In this document: in pieces, positions 15,739 to 39,410 of the stretch
How positions within the stretch are numbered: the first letter of the stretch is position 1
Layout: each line of letters begins with the position of its first letter
NCBI GenBank assembly: GCA_013821455.1
Contig: JACDGS010000026.1
Location: forward strand, 1-55,986
Source of the DNA: Chthoniobacterales bacterium
GTDB taxonomy: Bacteria; Verrucomicrobiota; Verrucomicrobiia; Chthoniobacterales; UBA10450
Direction: 5' to 3'
DNA: 55,986 nt
Program-made: the position numbers and the translations under genes
The notes under the pieces: model-generated
What the model saw: only the letters and a program-made list of their open reading frames with translations
What the model was told of the DNA's origin: nothing
The model's database searches: none

Positions 15739-16487
15739 GAGTCATCGCCGGCAGCGCCGGCGGCATCCGGCTCGACGTGCCGAAGAATGAGATCCGGCCC
15801 ACCATGGACCGGGTGAAAGCCGCCATCTTCTCGAGTCTCGGGGAGCGGATCATCGGCGCGCGGGTGCTCGATCTTTTTGCCGGCACGGGCGCGCTTGGCC
15901 TGGAAGCGCTCAGTCGCGGCGCTGTCTCCGCCATGTTTGTCGAAAGCGATCGGCAGGCTTTTGCAGCGATCGAGCGCAACCTCACAAAGACCAGACTAAG
16001 CGGGAGAGTGAGGAAACAGGATGTTTTCGATTTCCTCACTCACTCCAGCACGGCCGAGACTTACGACCTGATTTTCGCCGATCCGCCGTACGACAAATCG
16101 AAACTCGGCGATGCTTTTACCAAGCTGCTTCTGCGCAACGATCGCCTGCCCGCTCGCCTAACGAGTAAAGGACTCTTCGTGCTGGAAAAACGCCCGTCGG
16201 AGCGGCTGCCGGCGAGCGATTTTTGGGAAGTGGTGCGACGGAAGACCTACGGCGCGACGGAAGCGATTTTTCTCAAGGTGGCGTCAGCTTTCGGAGATGG
16301 TCTCATCTCCGCAACCAGTCATCCTGAGCGTAGCGCAGCGGAGTCGAAGGATCCCGTAGAGCTACCGGGAAACTCAATTGCGTCCGACGCTTCCCGGTTG
16401 CCCCACGGGATCCCTCGACTTCGTTCCGCTTCGCTCCACTCCGCTCGGGATGACCGCGCGTTCAAAGCATCACTTCCCCTGGGATGA
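15735..16487 (+). CDS. rsmD: 16S rRNA (guanine966-N2)-methyltransferase with repeat-encoded tail
   Basis: 250 residues; homologues are about 185. The family core spans residues 1-190: MRVIAGSAGG, RPTMDRVKAAIFSSLG, the SAM site VLDLFAGTGALGLEALSRGA, and catalytic ADPPYDKSKL. After FLKVASAFGDG the frame runs on through a complete REP-like repeat (16318-16454), adding about 60 residues (SHPERSAAESKDPVELPGN...). The repeat thus supplies the C-terminus. The TGA overlaps the ATG of waaA (16484), so the extended frame is coupled to the next gene. Confidence 0.93.
   Translation: MRVIAGSAGGIRLDVPKNEIRPTMDRVKAAIFSSLGERIIGARVLDLFAGTGALGLEALSRGAVSAMFVESDRQAFAAIERNLTKTRLSGRVRKQDVFDFLTHSSTAETYDLIFADPPYDKSKLGDAFTKLLLRNDRLPARLTSKGLFVLEKRPSERLPASDFWEVVRRKTYGATEAIFLKVASAFGDGLISATSHPERSAAESKDPVELPGNSIASDASRLPHGIPRLRSASLHSARDDRAFKASLPLG
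16318..16454. repeat. REP-like inverted repeat inside the rsmD frame
   Basis: Left arm GTCATCCTGAGCGTAGCGCA through GTCGAAGGATCCCG; right arm CACGGGATCCCTCGACTTCG through CTCGGGATGAC. The element is translated as the tail of RsmD. Confidence 0.85.
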
Positions 16488-17776
16488 TCCGCCTTCTTTA
16501 CAACCTGCTCTTTCCCCTCGCGCTGCTCGTCTTCCTCCCGGGTTATACCCTGAAAATGCTCCGGCGCGGAAATTATCGCGACCACTTTGGCCAACGGCTT
16601 GGGCTCTATGATCGCGCGACGCGACGCCGTCTCGCAGCGCATCCGCATACGTGGATGCACGCCGTCAGCGTGGGGGAAGTGATGCTCGCCCTCAAGCTGA
16701 TGCGGCGCATGAAAGAGGATGAACCCTCCCTCCGGGTGGCGCTCACGACGACGACCACCACCGGCTTTGCTCTCGCGCGCCGGGAAGCGCCGGAGTGGAT
16801 GGAAGTTCTTTACACGCCGCTCGATTTCTGGCCGGTGATGCGGCGGGCTTTCGCGGTGATTCGACCGGTGCGAATCATTCTCGTCGAGGCGGAGGTCTGG
16901 CCGAACCTGGCAGCTTTGGCGCGGAGGCGGAAAATCCCGTTCGCTCTCGTGAATGCGCGCCTTTCGCCACGTTCCGAGCGACGTTTTCGAAAGTTCAAGC
17001 GGGTCGTTAGGCCGTTCTTTCGCATGCTTGACCTGATCTGCGTGCAGGAGCCGGAAGATGTCGCGCGCTGGGAATCGTTAGGCGTGGACCCGGCTCGCAT
17101 TGAGCTGGTGGGAAGCATCAAGTTCGATCCCGAAGGCGTTGACCCTCGCCCGGAGCATCCGCGGGCGGTTCTGTCCGCTTTAGGAATCGACCCCGCGCGA
17201 CCCATTTTGCTCGGCGGGAGCACCCACCCGGGAGAAGAGGAAATCCTCGCCCGCGTCTTTCAGCAATTGCGCGAGAGTTGTCCTGATCTTTTCCTCATTA
17301 TCGCGCCCCGCCATGTGGAGAGAGCGAAGGAAATCGCGACGCGGCTGCGCGCCGCGGGTTTGCAGGTGGCCAGCCGAAGTGAGCCCGTCGAGACGCCCGC
17401 AGCGGATTGCCTTCTCCTCGATACGACCGGCGAATTGCGCAATTGGTACGCGGTCGCGACCATCGTCTTTATTGGCAAAAGTCTCACTGCGCATGGTGGA
17501 CAGAATCCGGTGGAAGCGATCGTAGCGGACCGTCCGGTGCTCTTCGGACCGCACATGGAAAACTTTGCTCGCCTCGCACAATCCCTCGTCCGCACCGGGG
17601 GCGCGTTTCAGCCTAACGACGAAGCCAGCCTCACGACGACCGCGCGAACTCTCCTGCACGACGCCGGCCTCCGCGCGCAACTCGTGCAGCAAGCTCGCGG
17701 GGTTCTCCAACCCCACCGCGGCGCGACTGGGCGGACGGCGGCGCTGCTCCGGACGTTGCGCGCGCACGCCGGGTGA
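16484..17776 (+). CDS. waaA: 3-deoxy-D-manno-octulosonic acid (Kdo) transferase
   Basis: 430 residues, GT30 family. N-terminal membrane-associated helix (MIRLLYNLLFPLALLVFLPG), glycosyltransferase N-domain (WMHAVSVGEVMLALKLMRRM, then ALTTTTTTGFALARR and VRIILVEAEVWPNL), and C-domain with LLGGSTHPGEEEILARVFQQ and GGQNPVEAIVADRPVLFGPH. It adds Kdo to lipid A precursor at the inner membrane, so the organism makes lipopolysaccharide. Third gene of the asmA-like/rsmD/waaA unit, followed by tRNA-Glu. Confidence 0.95.
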   Translation: MIRLLYNLLFPLALLVFLPGYTLKMLRRGNYRDHFGQRLGLYDRATRRRLAAHPHTWMHAVSVGEVMLALKLMRRMKEDEPSLRVALTTTTTTGFALARREAPEWMEVLYTPLDFWPVMRRAFAVIRPVRIILVEAEVWPNLAALARRRKIPFALVNARLSPRSERRFRKFKRVVRPFFRMLDLICVQEPEDVARWESLGVDPARIELVGSIKFDPEGVDPRPEHPRAVLSALGIDPARPILLGGSTHPGEEEILARVFQQLRESCPDLFLIIAPRHVERAKEIATRLRAAGLQVASRSEPVETPAADCLLLDTTGELRNWYAVATIVFIGKSLTAHGGQNPVEAIVADRPVLFGPHMENFARLAQSLVRTGGAFQPNDEASLTTTARTLLHDAGLRAQLVQQARGVLQPHRGATGRTAALLRTLRAHAG

Positions 17777-17824
17777 AATCCCTTGCCAGAGCGCAGCCGG
17801 CTCGGATATTGCCCGCCTTTCCTT

Positions 17825-17897
17825 GACCCTATCGTCCAGAGGCCTAGGACACCGCCCTTTCACGGCGGTAACACGGGTTCGAATCCCGTTAGGGTCG
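17825..17897 (+). tRNA. tRNA-Glu (anticodon UUC)
   Basis: 73 bases. Acceptor GACCCTA (17825-17831) pairs with TAGGGTC (17890-17896), discriminator G at 17897. The anticodon arm is CCGCC-CTTTCAC-GGCGG with anticodon TTC, and the T arm is CGGGTTCGAATCCCG. CCA is not encoded. The 3' 24 bases are repeated at 19944-19967. Confidence 0.95.
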
Positions 17898-18065
17898 TTT
17901 TCAATTTTCATAGGTGAATCCCGTGTAAGTAAAAGATCCACAAACTCTTTACTCCTTCTTCACGGAGGAGGCTCCACAAGGCTTAACCGTTTGAAGCTGA
18001 ATAGTACGGCGGCTCGCGGTCGGCTCCTTCACATGGTTAAATGCTTTCATGGTCGGGGTGGATGA

Positions 18066-19343
18066 TTACTCATTGTTGACGACCATTGGCGGTGCAGTCT
18101 GGCTCGCCGCAAACTGATCGCTTACCTTCTGAATCTGCGCAGCCTGCTCCTTCACCGCAGCCCTGAGGCTGTCGATTTCGCGCTGTTGCGCTGCGGCGTC
18201 GGCCCGCGATGCGTCCTGAGCGTGTTCGAGGGCTTCCACCTTGCCGTGCTCCTTCAAGAACTCATTGAGCAACATCGCGTTCACCGCTTCGTAACGAACG
18301 GTATAAGCCTTGCCTTGGTCGTCACGAGCCACTAGATCGGGATTTACTTTTTCCACTTGCTCCGCCACGAGGCCGAACTGCGGGATGCCCTTCGGGTCGA
18401 GCTCCTTCTTGTAGTGAAATGTCACTGGTTTAAGTGAAAGGATCGCTTCGCTCGCTTTGTCCATGGGTTGGATCGAATCCTTGTAACGGCCCGAGGAGGT
18501 GAGCGTCCCCAGCTGACCGTTGGCGTCGACCACCACCGTGACACCGCCTGCCACAGTGGCGCCGCTGATGCCGGCGATAAACGTCTCATGATGATAAGCG
18601 GCCGTGCCGATGCGGATAACCCCAGTTTCATCCCCCGCACCGCTGTCTAAGTAAATGTTGTGGTCGCCCATCCTGAGAATGCTTCCCGCATTGTAACCAA
18701 TGGCCACGTTGTTACTGCCCTTGCTCTTTTGGAGTGCACCAACACCGATGGCGATGTTGAATCCGCCCGTAATGCTCTTGTTAAGAGCTGAATTGCCGAT
18801 GGCGACGTTGGCGCCGCCGGTAGTGTTTGCCGCGAGGGCAGCAGCACCGGCGGCTGTATTCAACCCCCCGGTGGTATTCGAATACATCGCGTAACCGACG
18901 GCTGTATTCAGCCCCCCAGTCGTATTGGCGGAGAGCGCGGCATCACCGACGGCTGTATTCTGCAGCCCGGTGGTATTGAGTGCGAGCGCGCCAGTGCCGA
19001 TGGCGGTATTCTGAGAGCCGGTAGTATCGGCTGCGAGCGCGAGAGCGCCGATGGCCGTATTGAATGAGCTGGTCGCGATGTTGTAGAGCGCGTGATAACC
19101 GATGGCTGTGTTGTCTGCGCCGGTGGTGAGGCTGAAGAGGGCATCTTCACCCTCAGCGGTGTTTAAGGATGGATATCCTCCATCCGGTGGCGGACTCACG
19201 GCCTTCACCGCCGGCAAAATCGCCAGGCAGGCGATGGCCGGAGGGATGAGAAGAAAAGCACGCCTCCCGCAGTCGCGGGACGATCGGCGCAGTGAAGATT
19301 TTACGGATGAGACTGCCTTTGTTAACTGGATTGGATTATTCAT
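18066..19343 (-). CDS. NTAIG-repeat surface protein with C-terminal S74 chaperone-type domain
   Basis: 425 residues. A long N-terminal signal (about 1-48, FLLIPPAIACLAILPAVKA) is followed by about twelve repeats of 14 residues (NTAIGTGALALNTTG, NTAVGDAALSANTTG and so on, residues 70-235), resembling YadA-head or fibre-type beta-rolls. Then comes a peptidase S74/endosialidase-chaperone-type domain (SGRYKDSIQPM, LKPVTFHYKKE, QFGLVAEQVEKVNPDLVA, VRYEAVNAMLLNEFLKEHGK) and a final coiled coil (370-410). Likely a trimeric fibre or adhesin. In phages the S74 domain trims itself after trimerisation; I cannot verify that here. Confidence 0.85.
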   Translation of the reverse strand: MNNPIQLTKAVSSVKSSLRRSSRDCGRRAFLLIPPAIACLAILPAVKAVSPPPDGGYPSLNTAEGEDALFSLTTGADNTAIGYHALYNIATSSFNTAIGALALAADTTGSQNTAIGTGALALNTTGLQNTAVGDAALSANTTGGLNTAVGYAMYSNTTGGLNTAAGAAALAANTTGGANVAIGNSALNKSITGGFNIAIGVGALQKSKGSNNVAIGYNAGSILRMGDHNIYLDSGAGDETGVIRIGTAAYHHETFIAGISGATVAGGVTVVVDANGQLGTLTSSGRYKDSIQPMDKASEAILSLKPVTFHYKKELDPKGIPQFGLVAEQVEKVNPDLVARDDQGKAYTVRYEAVNAMLLNEFLKEHGKVEALEHAQDASRADAAAQQREIDSLRAAVKEQAAQIQKVSDQFAASQTAPPMVVNNE

Positions 19344-20112
19344 ATGGACGTTTCTTTCACTTGGTAGGTTTCAATTCCGACTACAGGTCTGAAAAGGGAA
19401 GAAGCTCCCAGGAAAAAGCGTCTGTGCCAGATCCAGATCTGTTCGACGGCAGCCATTCCGCTCCTTTTTGCCAAGCGGCGTCAAGGCAATTTGTCCACAG
19501 TCAACGACGCCCACAGCGGCTCCAAATCTAGTTGTCCAGCGCCATCAGCCGGAACTCCGGGCCGAACACGACACGATCCGCTCGCTCCTCACATTTTCGT
19601 TTCGCCTCGTTGCTACCAGAACCGGCCCGATACTAAAGGCGGCTAACGGCACGAAACAGCGGCTCGGCTCAGTTGGCAGGAAGCCTGTGATCTGGGCTTC
19701 CGCGGCGACCTTCGTGAATGGGCACGGCTCTTGGGGGCCGCACCGCGGCGAGGTTAAACCGTCGATTTCCGGCATTTTCGTTGCGCCTACGCGAAGCCAA
19801 AAAAACTTTCGGACAAATTCGGACACGAGGCCTGCGTAATTCTGCGCGAATCCCGCAGAGTGCTCGTTAGGCCATTTTCCCTCTAAGAAGCACTGCCGCG
19901 CAGGATTGTTCGGGATTCACGCAACTTCACGTATGGCCAAAAGCGGGTTCGAATCCCGTTAGAGTCGCTCTCCGTTCGGCGGGTCAGTCTTATTCTCGTT
20001 AGGCAAGGCAGAGCTTTGAAGGTGCCCCAGCCCTTAAGATCGCTCTTCTCCGCGGAGGAAAAGTGGCTGCCCTCTGGAAATCATTCGGCTTTCGCGATAC
20101 TACTCCTCTGGC
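19344..20112. other. 769-bp gene-poor region
   Basis: No convincing gene. Open frames here have no recognisable similarity or signal. It holds the second copy of the tRNA-Glu 3' end (19944-19967) and two GCCTAACGA motifs (19864 and 19996), the second in the extended form (GCCTAACGAGAATAAGAC on the minus strand). Promoters for the surface protein (leftwards) and hprK (rightwards) must lie at the two ends. Confidence 0.6.
19944..19967 (+). repeat. att-like copy of the tRNA-Glu 3' end
   Basis: CGGGTTCGAATCCCGTTAGA then GTCG; differs from the tRNA copy (17874-17897) at one base (A for G). The sequence upstream does not form a tRNA, so it is a fragment. Confidence 0.7.
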
Positions 20113-21108
20113 ATGAGTGCCGAACCCGCCGTCCAAACCATTTCCTCCGGGAGCGAGCAGCGCATGAACGTGCCGGTCGTCACGGTGGCCGGTTTCTTTA
20201 AACTCCACGCCAAGACGCTGCAGTTAAAACTGGAGAGCAGCGAAGTCGGCTTCGACCGGCGCATCCGCGAGCCGACGATCAACCGCCCGGGTCTTGCGCT
20301 CGCCGGCTTCTACACTTACTTCGCGGAGAAGCGCGTGCAGGTGCTCGGTGCGGCGGAACAATCCTATCTGAAGGATCTCTCGCCGCGCCAACGGCACGTT
20401 CGCTTTCAAGCCCTTTGCGCGCAAAAGATCCCCTGCCTCGTGGTCTCGCGCGGCTTCCATCTTTCTCCCGAGTTACTGGCAATCGCGGAGACTGCGGGCA
20501 TCGCGGTTTTTCGCACGCCCATGATCACGATGAAGTTTATCAACGCGGCGACGATCGCGCTCGAGCTCGATTTTTCCCCGGTCGTGACGGAGTTCGGCAG
20601 CATGGTCGATATCCTTGGGATTGGCGTTCTCATCCGGGGAAAAAGCGGCGTGGGAAAAAGTGAGTGCGTTCTCGGTTTGATTGAGCGCGGCTACAGTTTG
20701 GTGGCCGACGACGTGACCCGGATCAAGTCCCTCGAAGGTCGCGAGCTCATCGCGACCGCGCCGGAGCTGACTCGCTTCCACATGGAAGTCCGCGGCATCG
20801 GGATCATTAACGTGGTCTCGATTTTCGGCATCGGCGCGACCCGGATTGAGAAAAGACTCGACCTCGTCGTCACGCTCAAGGATTGGCAGGAGCTGGAGGA
20901 AGTGGACAGAATCGGACTCGACCGCGAGAATTACGAAATTCTGAAAATCCAAGTGCCGCACATCGCCATTCCGGTGCGACCGGGCCGCGATGTGGCGCGA
21001 TTGATTGAGGTTGCGGCGATGGATCAGAAATTAAAAGGGCTCGGACTGAACAGTGCGGTGCAATTTAATGAGCGGCTGCTTGGTCTGATGGAATTGAAAA
21101 CAAACTAA
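20113..21108 (+). CDS. hprK: HPr kinase/phosphorylase
   Basis: 331 residues from ATG 20113; an in-frame ATG at 20164 (MNVPVVTV) is an alternative and closer to the usual family start. Walker A is IRGKSGVGKSECV (176-183), followed by the capping segment LVADDVTRI and the HprK signature MEVRGIGIINVVSIFGIGA. It phosphorylates and dephosphorylates the regulatory serine of HPr. Its stop overlaps the ATG of ptsH by one base. Confidence 0.96.
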   Translation: MSAEPAVQTISSGSEQRMNVPVVTVAGFFKLHAKTLQLKLESSEVGFDRRIREPTINRPGLALAGFYTYFAEKRVQVLGAAEQSYLKDLSPRQRHVRFQALCAQKIPCLVVSRGFHLSPELLAIAETAGIAVFRTPMITMKFINAATIALELDFSPVVTEFGSMVDILGIGVLIRGKSGVGKSECVLGLIERGYSLVADDVTRIKSLEGRELIATAPELTRFHMEVRGIGIINVVSIFGIGATRIEKRLDLVVTLKDWQELEEVDRIGLDRENYEILKIQVPHIAIPVRPGRDVARLIEVAAMDQKLKGLGLNSAVQFNERLLGLMELKTN

Positions 21109-23218: not shown

Positions 23219-23374
23219 TGTCATCCCGACCGGAGTGAAGCGAAGCGCAACGTAGTCGAAGGATCCCGCGACCTAACGAGAAGCGCGACCTTTCCTTTTA
23301 TTCGTTAGGCAACGAAGCTTCCCGGCAGCTCCACGGGATCCCTCGACTGCGCCTTCGGCTCCGCTCGGGATGAC
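23219..23374. repeat. REP-like inverted repeat, GGATCC subtype
   Basis: Left arm GTCATCCCGACCGGAGTGAA through GTCGAAGGATCCCG; right arm CACGGGATCCCTCGACTGCG through CTCGGGATGAC. Its centre holds a facing pair of CCTAACGA motifs (23272 and 23303). Lies between the convergent ptsI and uppS genes. Confidence 0.85.
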
Positions 23375-23394
23375 AAGTGTTTTCCGTTACAACG

Positions 23395-29635: not shown

Positions 29636-29691
29636 TTAGAGGGGCGGAAGTGTCGCGCGACTTCGGTTCCCAGCCCGGATAGGAAAGACGT

Positions 29692-29720
29692 GTCATCCCG
29701 AGCGAAGCGAGGGACCCCTC
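29692..29720. repeat. Single-arm copy of the GTCATCC-GAGC repeat
   Basis: GTCATCCCGAGCGAAGCGAG then GGACCCC, one arm only, between the convergent Kelch and gmd genes. Confidence 0.6.
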
Positions 29721-30841: not shown

Positions 30842-30933
30842 GTCATCCTGAGCGGAGCGTAGCGGAGTCGAAGGATCCCGCCAACTTACCTTAAAGGTAT
30901 GTCACGGGATCCCTCGACTTCGCTCGGGATGAC
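30842..30933. repeat. REP-like inverted repeat, GGATCC subtype
   Basis: GTCATCCTGAGCGGAGCGTA through GTCGAAGGATCCCG, then CACGGGATCCCTCGACTTCG through CTCGGGATGAC. The most compact complete copy (92 bases), between the aldo/keto reductase and gmd genes. Confidence 0.85.
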
Positions 30934-31015
30934 TGGTAACCGCCCAGTATGACTCTAATCCCGCTTACGACCAGTGCCCCGTATTCTCAGAATCATAGGT
31001 ACCAGCATTTCACGC

Positions 31016-36145: not shown

Positions 36146-36197
36146 TTGGACCGTAGCCTAACGAGTAAGGGAGCCGGGTCATCTCATAAACGGGGAA

Positions 36198-36321
36198 GGC
36201 GTGTCATCCCGAGCGGAGCGAGGGACCCCGCAAGCGTTTTTCCGGCGTTGTCTTCGAGCGAGAGTCTATGGGACGTTTGCGGGGTCCTTCGCCGCGCTGC
36301 GCCGGCTCAGGATGACACGCC
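36198..36321. repeat. REP-like inverted repeat, GGACCC subtype
   Basis: GGCGTGTCATCCCGAGCGGA with GAGGGACCCCGC, and GCGGGGTCCTTCGCCGCGCT with GGCTCAGGATGACACGCC. Nearly perfect ends of 12 or more bases, between convergent genes. Confidence 0.85.
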
Positions 36322-39218: not shown

Positions 39219-39290
39219 GCAGATCAAAATGCGCTTTCCGTCTGCATGGGTCAACCGCAGAGTTTATGAGCTGTTTCATTCCCAGACAAG

Positions 39291-39410
39291 TATGTCATCC
39301 CGAGCGAAGCGAGAAAGCCCGCAGGCGTGTATCGGCATCGTTCTCGAGAGTGACGTCAACGGTCGCTCGCGGGGTCCTTCGCCGCGCTTCGCCGCCTCAG
39401 GATGACATGG
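39291..39410. repeat. REP-like inverted repeat, GGACCC subtype
   Basis: TATGTCATCCCGAGCGAAGC at the left; GGGGTCCTTCGCCGCGCTTC with CCTCAGGATGACATG at the right. The left GGACCC block has diverged (GAAAGCCC). Lies between vapB and the end of the oxidoreductase gene. Confidence 0.8.

Follow-up and report, generated by a model that had tools for sequence, protein, structure and literature searches.

Cis-mobilisable elements (CIMEs) have been described as decayed ICEs or IMEs (PMC5704250). In that account they retain the sites at both ends while the integration genes are gone, and they take part in tandem accretion. In Dehalococcoides, islands at the ssrA gene lie in tandem with 20-bp repeats of the RNA gene 3′ end as their borders, and 15 of these islands, which contain no integration module, were suggested to be cis-mobilisable (PMC3146451). 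Tycheposons, reported at 4-200 kb, combine a tyrosine recombinase, a tRNA target and cargo genes (PMC10872708), and CALINs (cassette arrays lacking integron integrase) are composed of cassettes without their integrase (PMC11389934).

The window, which is the whole stretch of 55,986 nucleotides analysed here, belongs to a draft assembly of 117 contigs from a Chthoniobacterales bacterium (genome G000), and all genomes compared with it are fragmented assemblies. Behind a tRNA-Glu(TTC) gene, the window contains a 2-kb segment that is close to the CIME concept and forms a CIME-like island in structure, with cores at both ends and no integration gene. Tandem accretion has counterparts among the relatives as well: G059 shows an array with two tRNA-Glu cores 2.4 kb apart (L134 18-38 and 2422-2442), and G061 has two right ends behind tRNA-Glu(CTC) (L183 245-381 and 2903-3033), the inner of which runs into a Glu(TTC)-like 3′ end. 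The complete relatives look more phage-satellite-like, however, and an ICE or IME origin of the kind given for CIMEs (PMC5704250) is not part of the assignment. The Dehalococcoides islands combine a serine recombinase with ssrA (PMC3146451), whereas a tyrosine integrase and tRNA genes are involved here. Tycheposons share the tyrosine recombinase, the tRNA target and the cargo genes with the present elements, but the window segment is smaller than the reported range and has no recombinase (PMC10872708). CALINs resemble it in having cassettes without an integrase, but follow integron chemistry (PMC11389934) in place of tRNA 3′ ends and arm-type repeats. Of the hallmarks of a tRNA-integrated island, the restored tRNA and the displaced 3′ end are present, and an integrase of its own is absent. 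A literature search, with subscription papers mostly outside its reach, found no paper on this element family. The segment is probably a stranded derivative of a small tRNA-Glu(TTC) element of the tyrosine-integrase type, from which the integrase was lost. The features of the locus, in window positions, are as follows.

16484..17776, plus strand: Kdo-transferase gene (waaA-like), left chromosomal flank; adjoins tRNA-Glu in most relatives inspected
17824..17898, plus strand: tRNA-Glu(TTC) (ARAGORN), integration target; the discriminator (last tRNA base) is 17897
17874..17897, plus strand: proximal attachment-site core, tRNA side; composed of the T-arm, acceptor strand and discriminator of this tRNA
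17906..17945, plus strand: left-end remnant (TTTCATAGGTGAAT...AAAAGAT), beginning 8 bases downstream of the core; no left TCGGACA pair
18066..19343, minus strand: gene for a 425-aa surface protein with a signal-peptide-like N-terminus (by eye), NTA.G repeats and, at the C-terminus, an S74 chaperone domain
19344..19804, no strand assigned: no recognised gene; an ORF at 19468-19839 (plus strand, 123 aa) extends into the right end
19807..19944, plus strand: element right end (nhmmer E=1.9e-26; sequence model R1 E=1.5e-20)
19809..19825, plus strand: TCGGACA repeat pair within the right end; distance to the distal core 138 bases
19944..19967, plus strand: distal attachment-site core, a displaced tRNA-Glu 3′ end with one mismatch
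20113..21108, plus strand: hprK (HPr kinase), right chromosomal flank

The two cores agree at 23 of 24 bases (96%), which confirms the one-mismatch repeat reported in a preliminary description of this DNA. By chance, about 2e-6 occurrences of a 24-mer with no more than one mismatch would be expected on both strands of a genome of this size, and the core matches these two sites only in the whole assembly (117 contigs, 4.3 Mb). The same description had named a decayed second tRNA gene and a wide dispersed repeat as other possible sources of the repeat. Both were examined, nothing was found in favour of either, and their probability is close to nil. The 53 bases upstream of the distal core are only 0.30 identical to the tRNA body, compared with 0.91-1.0 in true tRNA-Glu genes, so the distal core is not a decayed tRNA; the restriction of the core to two genome sites excludes the dispersed repeat. 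The repeat is an attachment-site duplication at the tRNA 3′ end, as had been proposed, and this is borne out by the element right end that precedes the distal core with fixed spacing. Among the relatives, 12 of 58 genomes (the window's included; at most two mismatches) have more than one match of the core pattern; the second match in G046 has a different sequence, resembling another tRNA. A hand count gives two matches in 14 of 83 genomes, where a second match on a separate contig may not always be an element end. On the tRNA-Glu contigs of G000, G002, G009, G016, G019, G057 and G081, an extra core lies downstream on the same strand in all seven cases.

The stretch before the distal core is conserved among relatives, with fixed spacing. 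An nhmmer model built without the window's right end (25 right ends listed, of which 21 passed the end test and were used) matched 19807-19944. Sequence model R1, made from 25 right ends and again leaving out that of the window, has this stretch as its one match in the window genome. Across the family it finds 53 right ends in 28 of 83 genomes, a count that includes most of the 25 behind the model. The right end contains two TCGGACA copies located 10 bases apart and about 138 bases 5′ of the core, and the motif occurs nowhere else in the segment. These repeats are likely arm-type integrase sites. A second right-end type, with GTGACAAA repeats at the equivalent position, is found in the integrase-bearing G016 element, in a 1.08-kb cassette of G002 and in G024. 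Among the 55 right ends in the fetched loci, 39 extend to the 3′ end of the model, and for 30 of those the sequence continues into the 3′ end of a tRNA, allowing up to 3 mismatches in 20, namely 13 of Glu(TTC), 11 of Glu(CTC), five of Gly(TCC) and one of Asp(GTC). Random positions in the same loci do so in 39 of 20,000 cases (five such 3′ ends tested; real sites included). In viral contigs the right-end pattern has no match; relatives of the integrase occur there at 11 loci, the best with 37% identity over nearly the full length.

The left end is only partly preserved. Four left ends of integrase-bearing elements, selected for their common spacing, went into a position weight matrix, which ranks 17906 as the top of 111,894 window positions; G009, G019, G057 and G061 scored poorly. 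The left-end HMM alone is weak over the window (E=0.68). The 8-base offset between core and left end also occurs in G008, G016, G066, G081 and G085. The TCGGACA pair expected after 17906-17945 is absent there. The segment retains intact cores and an intact right end together with a partial left end. Separately, in G009, G027, G074, G078, G094 and G099 tRNA-Glu is followed by left ends of a third kind, which have paired GCATAAC-like repeats, at these loci.

L039, L053, L137, L140, L142, L153: GCATAAC-like left ends, just after tRNA-Glu

Complete elements of 9.3-9.7 kb, each with a distal core, are located at tRNA-Glu in G016, G019 and G057. Their tyrosine integrase genes lie about 100 bases after the tRNA and are oriented like it. 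In G019 and G057, TCGGACA pairs are present at both ends, the left pair being 11 bases apart and following the tRNA. The G019 element also encodes a DnaB-like ATPase, an ERCC4 nuclease and a terminase-small-subunit-like protein. That of G057 encodes a fused BsuBI/PstI-type restriction-modification protein (L040 6552-9140), likely a defence cargo, and in addition an excisionase-like protein, an HNH endonuclease and part of DNA polymerase A. The preliminary description had suggested looking for the same core next to integrases elsewhere in the genome; the core is confined to its two sites there, and lies beside integrases in the three relatives.

Its statement that the segment contains no integrase agrees with our searches. 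PF00589 has no match on the window contig (C31), and the integrases of the relatives give a best tblastn hit of only E=0.47 in the window. Integrases close to the type beside the tRNAs (E below 1e-100) were detected at five loci across the 83 genomes; two stops interrupt one of them, and none is present in the window genome. Seven integrase-less cassettes, the window segment among them, lie on one contig with their tRNA, and another fragment is located at the end of a contig in G073.

Cassettes at Glu(TTC): G000, 2.07 kb; G002, 1.08 kb; G009, 6.4 kb; G081, 7.8 kb
Cassettes at Glu(CTC): G066, 1.05 kb; G085, 1.5 kb; G061, 6.5 kb

None of the seven carries the integrase, excisionase or replication genes of the integrase-bearing elements; the two groups have only their ends in common, plus one lipoprotein-like gene (G009 and G019). 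The cassettes encode a GT25 glycosyltransferase, a PglD-like acyltransferase, a PLP-dependent decarboxylase and S74 proteins, as well as an arginase-family enzyme, an amino-acid permease and an L,D-transpeptidase. In three of the seven a single gene was recognised, for the GT25 glycosyltransferase, the PglD-like acyltransferase and the S74 protein, respectively.

These cassettes bring in another explanation, in which they form a standing class of two-ended, integrase-less, non-autonomous units with one or a few cargo genes, moved in trans by related integrases. This is possible, at a clearly lower probability than decay. The 53 right ends far outnumber the five close-integrase loci, and the absence of leftover integration or replication genes from all seven one-contig cassettes is cleaner than piecemeal decay suggests. 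The single recognised gene in three of the seven points the same way, as does the 1.05-kb G066 cassette, where one acyltransferase gene lies between arm pairs retained on the left and on the right, with a mutation in one of the left copies. Against movement in trans, the left arm pair is missing in most of the cassettes, the window's included, the window genome has no close integrase, and neither a closed circle nor a polymorphic site nor an identical cassette at two places was seen. The stranded derivative remains the preferred reading of the window segment.

The single long gene between the cores encodes a protein in which Pfam Peptidase_S74 (PF13884) was recognised at E=7e-11. No solved structure matches it by sequence at E 0.01, and the 123-aa ORF beside its gene has no Pfam match. 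The preliminary description had suggested a phage tail-fibre gene as the cargo of a satellite. This suggestion is disfavoured by the N-terminus, which by eye resembles a signal peptide, and by the size of the family, with 15 matches in G000, 38 in G003 and 22 in G004 (two congeners); multiple copies favour a host surface protein over a phage part. PHROGs tail-fibre and spike families do match the repeats and the S74 part, which is expected because the architecture is shared. Phage packaging, replication and capsid genes are absent from the segment, which contains the S74 gene alone.

S74 homology lies within 1 kb of five of the 55 right ends (G000, G003 twice, G016 and G078), a weak pattern, and is absent from 1,040 kb of hprK neighbourhoods. 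In G000 and G009 it occupies a place between the tRNA and the distal core; in G078 it comes within 3 kb of the tRNA. A strong link between S74 genes and tRNA-Glu was considered and rejected, the cases in G000, G009 and G078 being about what we estimate by chance for a multicopy family. In G003, each of two truncated right-end copies (L154 6494-6660 and L287 505-680) has the 3′ end of an S74 gene about 22 bases away, and the two places have about 846 bases in common at 77% identity. The S74 gene could also be a mobile unit itself, whose many members inserted near old element ends independently. This is unlikely. The copy numbers, the contrast between right ends and hprK neighbourhoods and the opposite orientation of the S74 gene in the G009 tRNA-Glu cassette speak for it; however, the two G003 cases among the five are duplicated DNA, the numbers are small and the control regions are rich in core genes. 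Moreover, no transposase and no flanking repeats besides the cores surround the window gene. Within the decay reading, the gene may have arrived as element cargo or by later insertion.

To the left of the tRNA, the order rsmD, waaA, tRNA-Glu is conserved in most relatives inspected, whereas gene order to the right varies among genera. The congeners G001, G002 and G003, together with G005, have a large tail-protein-like operon (named by eye) at this position, and other relatives have a common gene set. The gene directly behind tRNA-Glu encodes a membrane transporter (cluster c31) in G020 and G079, and in G077 the start of this gene is found there before the contig ends. These arrangements allow a comparison with uninterrupted sites, which the preliminary description had proposed to look for in related genomes. 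The flank of the distal core in G008 is identical to the uninterrupted tRNA-Glu flank at 0.87 (G079) and 0.83 (G020) over 300 bases, compared with 0.31 for the tRNA flank of G008 itself. In addition, the place at which G001 and G003 have tRNA-Glu close to the tail-like operon is occupied in G002 by its 1.08-kb cassette, whose one gene encodes a GT25 glycosyltransferase. An uninterrupted locus is available for these relatives but not for the window's own junction, as tRNA-Glu joined directly to hprK occurs in no genome examined. In the congeners where hprK could be placed it has a different location (in G004 on the same contig, 64 kb apart), which is why the comparison did not reveal an empty site for the window, and rearrangement has therefore also affected the window locus. 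By hprK, the nearest named records are MAGs from soil and other environments assigned to Chthoniobacterales, Spartobacteria and Candidatus Udaeobacter, which places the window genome in Verrucomicrobiota.

That hprK is not beside tRNA-Glu in the placeable congeners, along with the draft state of the assembly, lends some weight to the view that rearrangement or assembly produced the repeat accidentally, without site-specific integration. We regard this as very improbable, given that the two ends of the element occur with the correct spacing and that hprK follows soon after the distal core in G008 and G081, which belong to another genus, as well.

Two further kinds of repeat were noted in the window. 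Dispersed GGATGAC/TCATCC-type repeats are located at 16318-16455, 23239-23377, 29682-29718, 30842-30953, 36193-36317 and 39284-39407. A 9-mer, TCGTTAGGC/GCCTAACGA, has 75 copies in the window compared with 0.44 expected (for example at 17004, 17075, 19864 and 19996), and TCGTTAGGC occurs 4,605 times in the window genome compared with 62 for the reversed control. It is also dense in the four congeners and in G005 and G014, modest in the other family genomes inspected and rare in 21 genomes from other families of the order. The 9-mer looks like a DNA uptake sequence; a limited literature search found no paper on such a sequence in Verrucomicrobia.

For the preferred reading, a stranded derivative, we propose the following course. 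A small element would have integrated at the 3′ end of tRNA-Glu(TTC) by means of a tyrosine integrase, restoring the tRNA on one side and displacing the 24-base 3′ end to the other. The integrase module and the left arm-type repeats would later have been lost, by internal deletion or replacement, leaving about 40 bases of the left end, one S74 gene and about 138 bases of the right end between the cores. The segment should now be immobile, but its cores could still recombine with a newly arriving element of this type.

More broadly, the soil Verrucomicrobiota of the Candidatus Udaeobacter-type family may, as a tentative and less probable extension, maintain a standing set of tiny integrase-less cassettes, made of two ends and a tRNA 3′ core. 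Rare autonomous relatives would move them in trans, shuttling single surface or envelope genes among Glu(TTC), Glu(CTC), Gly(TCC) and Asp(GTC) tRNA genes, and the window segment would be one of them with a damaged left arm. If true, this would be a tRNA-based analogue of integron cassettes. For uncultured soil Verrucomicrobiota, a defined element family that targets tRNA genes is now available, and because its ends can be recognised, remnants can be counted and dated even without an integrase. The excess of ends over integrases turns into a testable question, whether the cassettes are dead remnants or are moved in trans.
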